DNA of 10,612 bases from an uncultured Oscillospiraceae bacterium. Lineage in GTDB: Bacteria > Bacillota_A > Clostridia > Oscillospirales > Oscillospiraceae. The notes under the pieces are model-generated. The model was not told the DNA's origin and ran no database searches. It was given only the letters and a program-made list of their open reading frames with translations. Location: positions 1 through 10,612 of the forward strand of contig CALWWO010000146.1 of the NCBI GenBank assembly GCA_944385265.1. The letters are read 5' to 3'. Positions 2,534 through 9,785 of this stretch are shown here, piece after piece (position 1 is the first letter of the stretch; every line of letters starts with the position of its first letter). The translations under genes were made by a program, and so were the position numbers.

Positions 2534-4045
2534 TCAGCGCATAACGTCGTGCAATGCGTCTATCATATCGGATGGCGTCATGCAGTATTCTCCGAGTTTA
2601 TCGGCGCAGCTATCTCCCGCCGCTCCGTGTATGCACACGGCAAGCGGCACAGCCTGCTTTAGCGGCAGTCCCTGACCGATGAGCGACGCTATTATCCCCG
2701 CGAGCACATCGCCGCTGCCGCCCTTTGCCATACCGGGATTTCCGGTCGTATTTATAAATACCTCCCCTTCCGGCAATGCGGTTATCGTACGGTGTCCCTT
2801 TAAGACGAGGACACAGCCGTGCTCTGCCGCAAAGCTTCTCGCGACACCTATCCTGTCGCCTGACGAAAGATCTCCGCCGAGACGCTTGAATTCCCCGTCG
2901 TGCGGGGTGAGTATAATGTGGCTTTTAGCCTCCCTGAGCACATCTATATTTTTTGAAACGGCGTTCAAACCGTCGGCGTCCAAAACAAGCGGGATATTGG
3001 CTGAACGGACTATCTCGCTTACGAGCGCCGTGATCTCCGGCGACTGACCGAGCCCCGGTCCTATCAGGCACGCATCGCATTTTTCGAGCCGCATCAATAT
3101 TTCACCGGCGGCGGGAGAGGAAATCCTACCGTCTTCGTCGCACGGCAGCGGAAACGGCATCGCCTCGCGGCATCTTGCCGCCGTTATACCATAAATTGAG
3201 TCCGGTACGCCGAGGAAAACGAGACCTGCTCCCGATCTCACGGCGGCGTCCGAAGAAAGTACCGGCGCGCCGGTATACCCACGGCTTCCCGCAATTATGA
3301 GGAGCTTTCCGAAATCGCCTTTATGCGCGTCGCGCGGGCGTTTTGGAAGCTTTATATCGTCCTTTAAAAATGCGTTTGTCTTTATATCGAGTTTTCCGGC
3401 AAGCTCCTGCGGGATCCCGATATCCATTATATGCGTCCTGCCGCAGTAAAGGCACCCCGGAACCGTCATTTGCCCTGGCTTTGCCATAGAAAACGTAACT
3501 GTTACATTGGCTTTGACGGCGCAGCCCAGCACCCTGCCGGTATCGGTCTCGACTCCACTCGGCATATCAGCCGCGATAACAGCGGCTGGAGAATCGTTTA
3601 TCAGTGCAACAGCGTCCTTCGCCGCGCCGCGCATATCAGAATTCAGCCCCGTGCCGAACATCGCGTCGACAATAACAGTGCAGGACATAACAAACGTGCG
3701 TTGCTCCTCCGACATAGGATCGAAATCCTCTGTCACGCCGCCGCAAGCGGCGTATTTTTCAGCCATAGCGCGCGTGTCATGCGTCATTTTCGCGCGGTTT
3801 CCCGTCATAAAAACGCGGATATCCGCTCCGCGCTCTTTAAGTATCGCCGCCGCGCCGAAGCCGTCGCCCCCGTTGTTCCCGCTGCCGCAGAAAACGGCGC
3901 AGCTCCCGCCGGCGACAAGATATGTCGATGCAAACATTGCGATATGAGCGGCTGCCCGCTCCATAAGCTCAAGCGATGGGACGCCGAGCGTATTTATAGT
4001 GTATTCATCCATATATTTCATCTGTGATGCAGATGCAAGCTTCAT
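2534..4045 (-). CDS. nnr: Bifunctional NAD(P)H-hydrate epimerase / ADP-dependent NAD(P)H-hydrate dehydratase
   Basis: This cytoplasmic repair enzyme handles damaged nicotinamide cofactors. The N-terminal YjeF domain epimerises R- and S-NAD(P)HX, and the C-terminal ribokinase-like domain dehydrates S-NAD(P)HX back to NAD(P)H using ADP. With the chosen start the protein has 503 residues, normal for the fused form. Epimerase motifs are FCGSGNNGGDGFG (52-64), DAMFGTGL (127-134) and ADMPSG (159-164). The dehydratase domain begins at about 235 with GDFGKLLIIAGS (243-254) and continues with LDADGLNA (355-362), LTPHDGEF (379-386) and GGSGDVLAG (442-450), which holds the catalytic Asp. An in-frame ATG at 4069 exists, but the ATG at 4043-4045 has AGGAGTG seven bases upstream and gives the usual MKLAS-type beginning, so it is preferred. 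It leads the nnr-lipoprotein-alr unit. The acpS gene that lies near this block in some Firmicutes is not next to it here. Confidence 0.95.
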   Translation of the reverse strand: MKLASASQMKYMDEYTINTLGVPSLELMERAAAHIAMFASTYLVAGGSCAVFCGSGNNGGDGFGAAAILKERGADIRVFMTGNRAKMTHDTRAMAEKYAACGGVTEDFDPMSEEQRTFVMSCTVIVDAMFGTGLNSDMRGAAKDAVALINDSPAAVIAADMPSGVETDTGRVLGCAVKANVTVTFSMAKPGQMTVPGCLYCGRTHIMDIGIPQELAGKLDIKTNAFLKDDIKLPKRPRDAHKGDFGKLLIIAGSRGYTGAPVLSSDAAVRSGAGLVFLGVPDSIYGITAARCREAMPFPLPCDEDGRISSPAAGEILMRLEKCDACLIGPGLGQSPEITALVSEIVRSANIPLVLDADGLNAVSKNIDVLREAKSHIILTPHDGEFKRLGGDLSSGDRIGVARSFAAEHGCVLVLKGHRTITALPEGEVFINTTGNPGMAKGGSGDVLAGIIASLIGQGLPLKQAVPLAVCIHGAAGDSCADKLGEYCMTPSDMIDALHDVMR

Positions 4046-4075
4046 AAATATCACTCCTGTCCGAAGCATAAGATC

Positions 4076-4174: not shown

Positions 4175-4240
4175 TTATATATACGATTTTAGATTTTATC
4201 CGGCTTCATGCCGGTCGACTATATATATGGAGGGGTAGAT

Positions 4241-4915
4241 ATGGCTTTGATTCCTGATGTTAAATGCAGCAGATGTGACAGACATTATTCCGGACTTCGC
4301 GGCAAATGCCCGTATTGCGGCGCCCGAAGGTCGAAAAAAGGCAAGCGCGTCTCGCCGAATGATAACGCCACGTGGAAGCTGGCGATAAGCCTTCTGCTTC
4401 TCGTCATCCTCGTAGCGGCCGTCATCGTACTGGCGATAGGCTCGGGAAGAGACGCTGAAAACTCCTCTCCTGACGATTCAAGCAGCGTATCTACAAGCAG
4501 CGTCGACGGTGAGACCTCGGATTCTTCAGATTCCGCAGACGGCTCCGACGCGTCCGAATCCTCCGACGCGTCCGATACAACCGATACGTCTGATACGCCG
4601 GATTCTTCCGACAGTTCCGATTCCTCTGAATCGTCTACCAGCTCTGTTACGCCTTCGGGCGGCGTTGAAGCCGTTACTATAACATATCTCGGCGATCCGC
4701 GCGACGATATCACGATGACCATCGGCGAAGTGCTTCCGCTCGGTTATCAGACGACTCCGGCAGGAATCGAAGCGACGGCGTTGTGGGACAGCAGCGACGA
4801 CGACGTCTTTACCGTGACACAATCCGGCACCCTCACGGCTATCGCCGCAGGTGAGGCTGAGCTTACAGTCACTGTCGACGGCGTTACAGCACGATGCATT
4901 ATAAGAGTCAACTGA
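4241..4915 (+). CDS. Zinc-ribbon, membrane-anchored Ser/Asp-rich protein with Big2-like domain
   Basis: The 224-residue protein has a clear modular layout. A short N-terminal zinc ribbon has two CxxC pairs (C9, C12, C23, C26). A basic stretch (RRSKKGKR) follows, then one transmembrane helix at about 47-67. The next 70 residues (about 70-140) are almost only Ser, Asp, Thr, Glu, Ala and Gly, a flexible stalk. The C-terminal 80 residues resemble a bacterial Ig-like (Big2) domain: an YLGDPRDDITMTIGEVLPL strand, a W-D-S-S core (182-185), SGTLTAIAAGEAELTVTVDG. By the positive-inside rule the zinc ribbon would be cytoplasmic and the Big domain outside. The start is the ATG at 4241 with GGAGGGG five bases upstream; an in-frame ATG at 4208 falls in the leader hairpin and is less likely. 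The gene is transcribed alone. Function and partner are unknown. Confidence 0.88.
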   Translation: MALIPDVKCSRCDRHYSGLRGKCPYCGARRSKKGKRVSPNDNATWKLAISLLLLVILVAAVIVLAIGSGRDAENSSPDDSSSVSTSSVDGETSDSSDSADGSDASESSDASDTTDTSDTPDSSDSSDSSESSTSSVTPSGGVEAVTITYLGDPRDDITMTIGEVLPLGYQTTPAGIEATALWDSSDDDVFTVTQSGTLTAIAAGEAELTVTVDGVTARCIIRVN

Positions 4916-7611: not shown

Positions 7612-8094
7612 ATGTACATAAGACACGCCGCACGCGATGATTTTGACGAGATCATGGAGGTTTACGCATACGGGCGTCAATTCCAGATAGATAACGGGAA
7701 CCCCAATCAGTGGATAAACGGCTATCCGTGGGCTTGGCTTATACGCGAGGATATCGAAATGGGCAACTGCTACGTATGTATGGCGGATGATCACAGGATA
7801 GCCGGCGTTTTCACTCTGTTCGACGGACGGGATCCGACTTATGAGACTATAGACGGCGAGTGGCTGAATGACGACCCGTACCTTACGATACACCGGATCT
7901 CAAGCTCCGGTATATGCCACGGGATAGTAAAATTCTGCGTCGACTGGGTGTATGCGAAACGTCCGAATATCCGCATAGATACGCACCATGACAACTCCGT
8001 CATGCGGCATATACTTCCAAAGCTCGGCTTTAAAGAGTGCGGCGTTATTATCACGCATAACGGTACGCCGCGCATAGCTTTTCAAAAATGCTGA
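7612..8094 (+). CDS. GNAT family N-acetyltransferase
   Basis: The 160-residue cytoplasmic protein has the GNAT fold pattern and probably transfers an acetyl group from acetyl-CoA to an unknown amine. It starts MYIRHAARDDFDEIMEVY, the usual first strand and helix. YVCMADDHRIAGVFTLF (54-70) forms central strands. LTIHRISSSGICHGIVKFCVDW (91-112) covers the acetyl-CoA loop and following helix, with SSSGICHG in the pyrophosphate-binding position. IRIDTHHDNSVMRHILPKLGFKECGVI (120-146) is the typical C-terminal motif. AGAGAGG stands nine bases before the ATG. It is monocistronic between its own promoter and a strong terminator. The substrate cannot be read from the sequence. Confidence 0.93.
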   Translation: MYIRHAARDDFDEIMEVYAYGRQFQIDNGNPNQWINGYPWAWLIREDIEMGNCYVCMADDHRIAGVFTLFDGRDPTYETIDGEWLNDDPYLTIHRISSSGICHGIVKFCVDWVYAKRPNIRIDTHHDNSVMRHILPKLGFKECGVIITHNGTPRIAFQKC

Positions 8095-8125
8095 AAAATC
8101 CCCCTGTGTATCAGGGGGATTTTTT
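8094..8125 (+). terminator. Rho-independent terminator of the GNAT gene
   Basis: AAAAATCCCCCTG (8094-8106) pairs perfectly with CAGGGGGATTTTT (8112-8124) around TGTAT, followed by one more T. It begins at the last base of the GNAT stop codon. The GC-rich core and six-T tail make it a textbook terminator. Confidence 0.95.
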
Positions 8126-8126
8126 A

Positions 8127-8218
8127 TCGCCGGAAAGGCAACATATTTCGTTCGAAAGAGCGATACATTTTTCGCCCACTATGTGGGCGGGATTGCCGCG
8201 CCGCAATGGTGCATTTTT
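8127..8218 (+). other. Spacer after the GNAT terminator with an extra hairpin
   Basis: No gene is supported here. A perfect hairpin CGCCCAC-TAT-GTGGGCG (8173-8189) lies 29 bases before repeat copy A and may be an additional module of it. ATTGC (8192-8196) and GCAAT (8203-8207) form a weaker stem. Confidence 0.5.
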
Positions 8219-8401
8219 TCGCGCGAAGCGCGAGTTTCCTTTTCGCGCCTATGGCGCGGGTGTTGTTACCATTTCTTTGGCATATCCCTCGTCGCCGCAA
8301 GCTTCATATCGTTTGTTTTGCCCTTTCGGGCAAAAGTGCGCTCATTCCGCTGCGTCTCCTCTCAAAATCACAACCGCTTCGCTGGGTTGCGATTTTGTAT
8401 C
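8219..8401 (+). repeat. Modular hairpin element, copy A (plus orientation)
   Basis: The element reads, in order: hairpin H1 TCGCGC-GAA-GCGCGA (8219-8233); ten T-rich bases; hairpin H2 CGCGCC-TAT-GGCGCG (8244-8258); 12 bases; the box ATTTCTTTG (8271-8279); about 36 bases; hairpin H3 TTTTGCCC-TTTC-GGGCAAAA (8316-8335); 20 bases; and a conserved core (8356-8401). The core holds hairpin H4, a 13-bp stem with one mismatch (8363-8375 with 8385-8397). Copy B on the other strand has the same layout and core, but different H1-H3 stems. Overlapping ORFs of up to 132 codons cross the area but do not look like real proteins. The nature is unknown: structured RNA, or a short dispersed repeat. Confidence 0.7.
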
Positions 8402-8737
8402 TGCCTTTTTCTATGTTTTCTCCCAGCACAGGCATACGTCATCTAAAATGATAGACTATCCCCCTCAAGATAGAGGGGCGCATTGACAGCGCGATGCGTA
8501 ACAATAACACTGCGCGCAGTATTACACCGCGGCACGGAGGTCACGTTACCCTGCTCTCTTTATCGTTACTTTCGTCTGCCGCGCCTTTTATGGCGCGGGG
8601 TAGTGATTTAAAAATCTATCAGATTTCCACCGTCATTCGTCGAATGATGAGCACAGTCATGTTACTAAAGGGTACTTCCTTTTCAGAATTGTCCATGCGT
8701 ATGTTGATGCGCGCCTTTTGGGGTTTGCAAAGGGGAA
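8402..8737. other. Hairpin-rich spacer between the two element copies
   Basis: No credible gene is seen. Palindromes are frequent: CCCCTC/GAGGGG (8461-8478) competing with CTATC/GATAG (8456-8473); the 12-base palindrome ACTGCGCGCAGT (8509-8520); CCGCGCC-TTTTAT-GGCGCGG (8579-8598); AAATCT-ATC-AGATTT (8612-8626); and TCATTCG-T-CGAATGA (8633-8647). The last three follow each other closely and resemble the H1-H3 style of copies A and B without the shared core, so this may be a decayed or different member of the same family. Confidence 0.45.
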
Positions 8738-8948
8738 GATACAAAATTACAACCCAGCGCAAGCGGTTGTGATTTTGAGAGGAGGAGCGATGGAGTGGGT
8801 AAGCGTCCGCTTAAAAGCGGACGCGCGCTTAACGCAATCCGCGACGACGATTTCTTTGGGTGTACCCGTTTCTTTGACATACATCAAAGAAATGGGTACA
8901 AATCCCCGCTCGCTTTCGCGGGCTAAAAAGGTGCCGCCCTTAGGCGGC
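8738..8948 (-). repeat. Modular hairpin element, copy B (minus orientation)
   Basis: Read on the minus strand the order is: hairpin H1 GCCGCC-TAAG-GGCGGC (8948-8933); ten T-rich bases; hairpin H2 CCCGC/GCGGG (8922-8905); 11 bases; the box ATTTCTTTG (8893-8885); a palindromic extension of the box (stem 8861-8877 with 8884-8900, 17 pairs with one wobble); 36 bases; hairpin H3 GCGTCCGCTT/AAGCGGACGC (8824-8803); 18 bases; and the core (8784-8738). The core matches copy A at all but two positions plus one added base. Its hairpin H4 pairs 8742-8754 with 8765-8777. The copy starts about 20 bases after the histidinol phosphatase stop codon. Confidence 0.7.
8925..8948 (-). terminator. Likely terminator of the his operon, overlapping copy B hairpin H1
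   Basis: On the minus strand GCCGCC-TAAG-GGCGGC is followed by ACC and five T. The stem is only 6 bp and the T run is displaced by three bases, so it is weaker than the GNAT terminator. It lies 22 bases past the last gene of the operon. Confidence 0.5.
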
Positions 8949-8969
8949 GAAGGGTTATGTGCGATAAAA

Positions 8970-9785
8970 TCAAAGCTTTTCGCACTGAAGACCATCTCTG
9001 GTCATGACCATAAAATTTTTAAACCCGCAGCTTTTGGCGAGCGCCACAGCCTCACCAAAACCGTAATCAAGCGCGGCTCTATCGTGACAGTCGCTCGATA
9101 TCGCGATGCTGCCTCCCATATCGTGTATATCCGCAAGTATCTGCTTTGACGGGTACGGCGCGCTTCTGTATCCTCTCGCCATTGCGCCCGTATTTATCTC
9201 GAACGGCTTATTATACGGTATGAGCTTTATGAGCGCCGCGCGGTATGCGTCTACATACTGCGGATCGGACTCAGAGAACATAACCTCTCCCTCGTTAAAC
9301 TTTGTTATGAGGTCGAAATGCCCTATGATGTCGGCGTTCGTCTTCCCGACCACGTCCGCGACCGTGGCGAAATAGTCCTCTACAAGTCCGTAGATGTCGC
9401 CGCCGTAGTGCTTTATCGCGGCGTCTTTTAATATCTGCGCCGTCTCGTCAACGGGAATATACTCCCCGTTTTTGAGCACATAGTGGACGGAGCCTATGAC
9501 GTAGTCCCAGCGCGACACCGGCTCATCGGAGTAATAATCCTGCTCTATGCCGCAGTACAGCTCTATCCGTCCGCAGTATTTGACCTTGAGGGCGTTTATT
9601 TCATCGTAATACCTATCGGCTGCGGCGTGAGACATTGCATAGCTTAAGTCAAACGGCGTATGCGCATGCCCCGAAAAACCGAGCGCGGTGAATCCGAGAG
9701 CTATCGCGGCTTTTATCGTCTCCTCCGGCGTATTTTTGCCGTCGCAGTATGTCGTGTGCGTGTGAAAATTCTTTTTGATGCTCAT
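8970..9785 (-). CDS. hisJ: PHP-type histidinol-phosphatase (HisJ/HisK family)
   Basis: The 271-residue cytoplasmic enzyme of the PHP superfamily is predicted to convert L-histidinol phosphate to L-histidinol, the penultimate product of histidine synthesis. Metal-site motifs are in the family order: [10 protein letters not shown] (H8, H10, D15), FSGHAHTP (H40), CGIEQDYY (E81), IGSVHYV (H101), DIIGHFDL (H156), FEINTG (E197) and ISSDCHD (D232, H234). The ATG overlaps the hisIE stop codon by four bases (ATGA), so translation is probably coupled. Its place in a his operon supports the histidinol-phosphate substrate over other PHP activities. It is the last gene before repeat copy B. Confidence 0.93.

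Follow-up and report, generated by a model that had tools for sequence, protein, structure and literature searches.

The convergent gap and the two arms of a proposed element

The window, a stretch of 10,612 nucleotides from an uncultured Oscillospiraceae bacterium, contains an 875-bp gap (8095-8969) which, according to the list of open reading frames (ORFs), separates the convergent ORFs 7612-8094 (+) and 8970-9785 (-). Pfam searches assigned the genes flanking the gap to ordinary housekeeping families (alanine racemase, NAD(P)H-hydrate dehydratase, YitT, M18 peptidase, PHP, and PRA-CH/PRA-PH). ORF 7612-8094 was without a Pfam match, and its GNAT label is derived from the names of homologues. 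The best named relatives of the M18 peptidase belong to Ruminococcaceae/Oscillospiraceae metagenome-assembled genomes (MAGs; 60-62% identity), with closer homologues at 68-85%. A perfect 13-bp terminator-like hairpin (8094-8124) is located at the stop codon of the GNAT-like ORF, apart from the element described below. Elsewhere in the window, the translation of ORF 4208-4915 shows a zinc-ribbon-like start, a single membrane segment, and a Ser/Asp repeat stretch, and contains a Pfam Big_2 domain; the product is probably a surface protein with a repetitive linker.

A sequence-only reading of the window had described two inverted copies of a modular element within the gap, A (+) and B (-), each with three hairpins of unrelated stem sequence (H1-H3), a box, and a near-identical core (H4) at conserved spacing. 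The parts are listed here as the arms of one proposed element.

8219-8948, no strand: proposed single inverted-repeat element, from H1 of A to H1 of B, with putative outer limits; inverted arms, compare the ~735-bp unit in another genus (copies, empty sites)
8219-8233, +: H1 of the left end, perfect 6-bp stem; as RNA, possible pairing with H2
8244-8258, +: H2 of the left end, GC hairpin outside the box, perfect 6-bp stem 12 nt ahead of the box
8271-8279, +: left box ATTTCTTTG, without the CAAAGAAA partner and second box, from alignment to the right end
8316-8335, +: H3 of the left arm, perfect 8-bp stem
8356-8401, +: core H4 of the left arm, apex GCTTCGCT, from alignment; fold z -4.6
8411-8728, no strand: hairpin-rich element centre, with hairpins at 8461-8682
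8738-8785, -: core H4 of the right arm, from alignment; fold z -3.4
8803-8824, -: H3 of the right arm, perfect 9-bp stem
8850-8858, -: second (direct) CAAAGAAA box of the right end, from sequence and pattern match
8861-8900, -: right end hairpin, foot TGTACCC/GGGTACA plus TTTCTTTG/CAAAGAAA; 17-nt arms 94% complementary, fold z -6.2
8905-8922, -: H2 of the right end, 5-bp GC hairpin 11 nt ahead of the 9-nt box
8933-8948, -: H1 of the right end, perfect 6-bp stem followed by ACCTTTTT

In total, 12 perfect hairpins (stem of at least 6, loop of 3-9) were found in the gap, where 200 shuffles averaged 1.3 and reached at most 7. The excess spans the entire gap, including 8173-8207 ahead of A and 8461-8682 between A and B, and the two modules are therefore not delimited by hairpins. 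Besides the hairpins of A and B, five lie in the centre of the proposed element (8461-8682), among them CCGCGCCTTTTATGGCGCGG between GTTACTTTCGTCTG and GGTAGTGATTT, and GTTACTAAAGGGTACTTCC; by eye, CCGCGCCTTTTATGGCGCGG with its flanks and GTTACTAAAGGGTACTTCC look like decayed box ends.

Comparison of A with B confirmed the earlier observation in part, the hairpins, core, and box being upheld and the box-H3 spacing not. The two are related, as their local alignment score of 92 was approached by at most 37 in the best of 300 shuffles. The near-identical core (local score 80; no more than 24 in any of 1000 shuffles) and the similar stretch around the common ATTTCTTTG box (score 24, reached by 0 of 1000 shuffles, the best of which scored 23) are as described, and so are the perfectly paired stems of H1A (8219-8233), H2A (8244-8258), H3A (8316-8335), H3B (8803-8824), H2B (8905-8922, with a stem of only 5), and H1B (8933-8948). 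The description of H1-H3 as unrelated yet paired holds for the pairing. H3 shows no sequence homology between A and B (610 of 1000 shuffles scored as well), and similarity in the H1-H2 stretch is marginal (equalled by 16 of 1000 shuffles, with the best alignment in another register). In the RNA fold of A (8219-8260), H1 pairs with H2 in preference to forming two separate hairpins (z -2.3), while two separate hairpins are formed in B (8952-8895; z -2.1). Spacing is conserved between H1 and H2 (10 bases in both), between H2 and the box (12 in A, 11 in B), and between H3 and CAAAATC (27 and 25), but not between the box and H3, which are 36 bases apart in A and 60 in B because B has an additional CAAAGAAA...CAAAGAAA segment. 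The box segment of B reads TTTCTTTG-ATGTATGT-CAAAGAAA-CGGGTACACC-CAAAGAAA, of which A retains the first box only. The two boxes are inverted and ~570 bp apart, and the A end is degenerate.

Both copies were also correctly described as oriented like the gene preceding them (the GNAT-like ORF ending at 8094, +, and the PHP ORF ending at 8970, -), which would equally result from one inverted-repeat element between convergent genes. The right-end H1 (8933-8948) may double as the terminator of the PHP gene (stop at 8970). The foot helix TGTACCC/GGGTACA of the right end adjoins one A-C mismatch.

Box ends in other genomes, plasmids and viral contigs

Other genomes were searched with the end pattern TTTCTTTGN{3,20}CAAAGAAAN{2,12}CAAAGAAA, which fits the complete B end (TTTCTTTG-loop-CAAAGAAA-spacer-CAAAGAAA). 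Among Pseudomonadota, 37 of the 398 genomes searched had matches, and among Bacteroidota 2 of 198; of three further genomes, one did, a Latescibacterota MAG. A single genome held as many as 39 matches, and none occurred in 149 Planctomycetota genomes. Phyla were assigned from the titles of the records that pointed to each group. A stricter end pattern was found in none of 59 relatives of a Cytophagales MAG. MAG contamination could be the source of the matches in the rarer phyla. The reversed pattern, used as a control, had no match in the 748 genomes searched, nor in the Cytophagales set, and a chance fit of the end pattern in 10.6 kb is thus unlikely. This bears on another account of the locus, an ordinary hairpin-rich convergent gap with terminators, in which the likeness of A and B would be a local inverted duplication and the box match a coincidence. 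Such a gap would agree with hairpins occurring throughout 8095-8969 and with H1-H3 being without convincing common sequence; against the silent reversed pattern and the 12 perfect hairpins, compared with at most 7 in 200 shuffles, we regard it as very unlikely.

The end pattern was also found in IMG/VR contigs of differing base composition; of the 18 contigs, L059 and L063, coding-like by eye, were excluded from the tests of GC hairpins, tips, and loops described below. A blastn search of plasmids with the L048 end gave 13 records and 52 places, in Caballeronia, Pasteurella, Paraburkholderia, Variovorax, Chitinibacter, and Ilyobacter. The best match was without an annotated gene beneath it in 11 of these records and two were without annotation, the plasmid gene table being incomplete (one Caballeronia record holds a single feature in total). 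L048-like ends in Ilyobacter and Pasteurella are intergenic at the two annotated places inspected. With the Ilyobacter end, blastn gave 10 records and 50 places, two of the records being from Pseudoalteromonas. In several bacterial phyla, the end signature belongs to a repeat that is dispersed and apparently mobile.

Searches with the window's own sequence gave less. An exact 18-mer of the core had five matches in the genome collection, none in hairpin context, and an exact 16-mer matched 39 stretches of viral contigs, by eye none of them in hairpin context. Neither A, searched against plasmids, nor B, searched against phages, gave a blastn match, and the B box at E ≤10 gave short and weak matches in 23 plasmid records. 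One stretch recovered from viral contigs with a palindromic core pattern was rejected as an AT-rich terminator-like hairpin. No Oscillospiraceae host DNA was detected in viral contigs by an M18-peptidase profile search.

The structure of the ends was analyzed in an alignment of 40 ends including the window, taken from 46 ends of 38 hand-chosen sources by dropping the second L073 copy, L050, two L090 ends, and two L122 ends. The structure tested (foot, box, and loop/downstream helices) was written after inspecting the sequences. Across these 40 chosen ends, the foot helix and the loop-to-downstream (pseudoknot-type) helix covary: 84.7% of the cells were paired compared with 75.7% in shuffles, and covariation was 0.190 compared with 0.085 (0 of 500 shuffles on both measures), in a test of the kind that related rows inflate. 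Sliding by 1-3 columns lowered pairing to 44-60%. Compensatory changes occur in all eight pairs outside the box, which is itself invariant because the pattern required it. Two of the five measures, the pairs with double changes (8 vs. 6.9; 55 of 500 shuffles) and the further types of pair (18 vs. 16.9; 171 of 500), were not clearly beyond the shuffles, only 67-68% of cells were paired in the foot helix (four pairs) and the loop helix, and RNAalifold predicted from the 40 ends only the invariant box helix, without a covariation term.

In 51 of 58 distinct ends, the loop was complementary (run of at least 3) to the 6 nt past the second box, compared with a mean of 20.1 and a maximum of 29 in 500 swaps; runs of at least 4 were found in 36 of the 58 (swapped 5.6, maximum 13). 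In the window this pairing is a run of 1 only, and the pseudoknot pairing is absent. A GC hairpin within 20 nt outside the box was observed at 49 of 79 ends, the window included, compared with 164 of 890 positions taken at random and with 223 of 1580 shuffles. These hairpins differ in sequence among ends, and both window ends have one. For 15 of 117 ends, an interior tip, TGAGCGNAGCGAGTT, on quite different stems, was found no more than 600 bp away, and it was present in none of 117 control stretches; the 15 come from six genomes, some elements were counted from both ends, and controls were short or empty near contig ends. Read on the minus strand, the apex of the left core in the window includes AGCGAAGC, the middle of this tip, and the right core does not exactly; AGCGAAGC may be a weak link of the window to the tip.

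Since the foot and loop helices covary, structure kept while sequence changed is true for the wider class. The earlier interpretation is in this way partly supported: a dispersed repeat with hypervariable stems, under selection on structure, describes the wider set that shares the motif (covarying foot and loop helices, varied GC hairpins, and tip stems in six genomes). The window is probably a divergent, partly decayed example of the box-ended repeats; with the pseudoknot pairing absent and the A end degenerate, its membership is likely rather than established.

Inverted pairs and occupied and empty sites

In Pseudomonadota, ends of both orientations were found in nine of 20 fetched regions, several of which were chosen because a pair was visible, and all nine have the '> <' order of the window, none '< >'; one other region has two ends of the same orientation only, and the remainder a single end. 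Two loci of the Latescibacterota MAG have inverted ends separated by 318 and 322 bp, and a third (L066) is without a partner. By script, an inverted partner no more than 1.3 kb away was detected at only three of 20 loci (21 were given, one without an exact end, and some of curtailed extent), which indicates that ends are often single or decayed.

Comparison of the copies in genus G311 by blastn delimited a ~735-bp unit whose inverted arms measure ~300 bp; the box lies ~100 bp inside this unit, and the outermost sequence is a mosaic. At the L107 site, distances read by hand from the match table place the flanks ~860 bp apart in G311 and 122-361 bp apart in at least 28 of 40 congeners, among the matches listed. 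Of the other 12 congeners, five (G661, G671, G672, G680, and G683) are longer or element-bearing, and seven were without both flanks in order on one contig, among the matches listed. A script restricted to the same strand paired the L107 flanks in nine of 30 loci, seven at 129-281 bp, one at 709 bp, and one as a partial match. At the L201 site, six of ten congeners have 188-233 bp where the occupied site has ~830-875 bp, and G671 carries the element; at the L200 site, both flanks appeared side by side in none of ten congeners, among the matches listed. These ten congeners had 60-197 matches per genome, a count that includes the flanks, the two arms, and either strand. The compared sites yielded neither an exact junction nor a target duplication.

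The pairs bear on whether the window holds one element or, as first described, two dispersed copies that arrived independently in head-to-head order. Ends at 17 of 20 loci have no detected partner, and only the core and box are convincingly common to A and B, as independent copies would allow. The '> <' order with a few hundred bases between the boxes recurs in other genomes, and the G311 pair is copied and absent as one unit, which makes a chance meeting of two copies improbable. We infer that A and B are instead the inverted ends of one element of ~730 bp, and replace the two copies of the earlier description with this single element.

At 2863-4055 and 15384-16191 of L197 (G671:C1:76000-95000), an element is bordered on both sides by pieces of the outer arm, in a nested arrangement that looks as if elements insert symmetrically into one another. 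In L102, L103, and L203, the outermost ~50 bp alternates among modules, for example GTTCGCACTCGG and GCGCTGGCGCTTGG, with G-rich runs, forming a mosaic beyond the arms.

Nature of the proposed element and relation to known repeats

The reading that we prefer, and to which we give about an even chance, is that a single dispersed element, non-coding and non-autonomous (MITE-like), occupies 8219-8948, and that this element, whose inverted ends are highly folded, was inserted between convergent genes. In a complete end, a GC-rich hairpin would be combined with the box hairpin TTTCTTTG-loop-CAAAGAAA and a further CAAAGAAA. The fold of the end, most likely as single-stranded DNA, would be recognized together with the invariant box by an enzyme acting in trans, and the stems would consequently be free to drift provided that pairing holds. 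Insertion just beyond gene ends would be tolerated best. Repeat copies, inverted pairs, presence and absence at one site, covariation, and an excess behind gene ends were all observed for relatives elsewhere; the window would be of the same kind, its movement would be transposition (deletion is possible), and its fold would act as DNA. Counting against this single inserted element are the loop run of 1 in the window, the A end without CAAAGAAA partner and second box, the possible pairing of H1 with H2 in A, the core without a copy in the genome collection (exact 18-mer), and the detection of a partner at 3 of 20 loci only.

Gene context was determined from crude ORF calls, in counts where related copies are non-independent. 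Among 100 ends with a detectable outer gene, there were 65 strict cases, 44 with the 3' end of the outer gene toward the element and 21 with its 5' end; within 200 bp of the ends, there are 38 gene 3' ends and 17 gene 5' ends. The excess of 3' ends could also reflect a function at the RNA level. As a bidirectional 3' end module, the GC hairpin, the box hairpin/pseudoknot, and the long hairpins would stop the polymerase or protect the mRNA end; convergent transcripts would run into the module, and the repeat would spread as useful or neutral there. By eye, the ends L049, L050, L051, L058, L061, and L062 directly follow terminator-like hairpins with T runs, and the H-type pairing with an A-rich third segment is like that of known RNA pseudoknots. 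Rfam gave no match at gathering score in the window or in 10 related loci, and the 11 matches at a permissive E-value were all under the gathering score. Given also that 21 of the 65 strict cases face gene starts and that the symmetry of two ends is equally needed by ends acting as DNA, we consider the RNA module possible but rather doubtful.

The enzyme that would move the single element was sought among IS200-like transposases. Of 42 Y1_Tnp (PF01797) matches in 27 of the 40 box-bearing genomes, 30 loci were inspected, and none had a box end within about 1.5 kb. A Y1 match was present in 21 of the 27 genomes and absent from six, and PF01797 was not detected among the nine window proteins scanned. 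Mobilization as a REP/BIME/TIRtron-type repeat by such a transposase (RAYT/TIRYT) would fit the same kind of habitat, the palindromic structure, the 21 genomes with a match, and the RAYT-like genes with long flanking TIRs and repeat families described in passages of PMC3733652; with 0 of 30 Y1 loci carrying a box end and six genomes free of Y1 matches, we find it highly improbable. No autonomous version of the element was found among the copies examined. At L196 (4325-6938), transposase-like ORFs were read in 2.6 kb between the arms of one long element. This long version was rejected as an autonomous parent, as its ORFs resemble the transposases of other insertion sequences; it looks as if the element had been their target.

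The box-ended repeat is best described as a structured, non-autonomous dispersed repeat, the nearest known kinds being REPs/REPINs with RAYTs, TIRtrons, and stem-loop repeat families. With REPs/REPINs, as they are described in parts of PMC3733652 and PMC2817692, it shares being palindromic, intergenic, of high copy, often paired, and mostly downstream of genes. It differs by a unit of ~350-750 bp (20-40 bp in REPs/REPINs), by the TTTCTTTG/CAAAGAAA box, and by having no box-bounded Y1 gene at 30 loci. TIRtrons/TIRYT repeats likewise have long inverted repeats, some partly self-complementary, that form repeat families (PMC3733652, in part), but no tyrosine transposase was found beside the box ends; the TIRs were compared by description, not sequence. 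Bacterial MITEs (NEMIS, RUP, ERIC, Nezha, and others) are also short, non-coding, foldable intergenic elements with inverted ends, given in the same source as 70-300 bp long with TIRs of 15-30 bp, whereas the present elements have ~300-bp arms (in one genus), covarying end helices, and no parent IS that was found. The families of Cozzuto et al. (2008; PMC2267715) are systematically listed bacterial stem-loop repeats, two thirds intergenic, with shared predicted structure; their main text contains neither TTTCTTTG nor AAAGAAA, and overlap is possible in the family sequences and supplements, which lie outside this comparison. A literature search by box and tip sequence and by topic found the repeat in no title or abstract opening among the matches listed, with subscription journals, figures, and supplements mostly outside its range. 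A box string occurs in PMC7525159, PMC12336165, and PMC12323599, among the matches listed.

More tentatively, the box-ended repeats may be mobile elements of a class so far without a name that occurs across phyla (Pseudomonadota, Bacteroidota, Fusobacteriota, possibly Latescibacterota) and in Oscillospiraceae, with ends recognized by shape (TTTCTTTG plus two CAAAGAAA), a covarying foot and pseudoknot loop helix, flanking hairpins of variable stem, and an undiscovered enzyme inserting them into gene ends. Dispersed palindromic repeats are usually lineage-specific, and the same eight-letter box with covarying pseudoknot-type pairing in Pseudomonadota, Bacteroidota, Fusobacteriota, and perhaps Bacillota would point to a trans-acting factor across phyla. 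The repeats also offer a concrete test case for structure kept while sequence is lost, and for what moves non-autonomous elements without a known parent. As AAAGAAA is identical when reversed, the second box could serve as a purine third strand, antiparallel on the box helix, or it could form the A-rich loop of an RNA pseudoknot.
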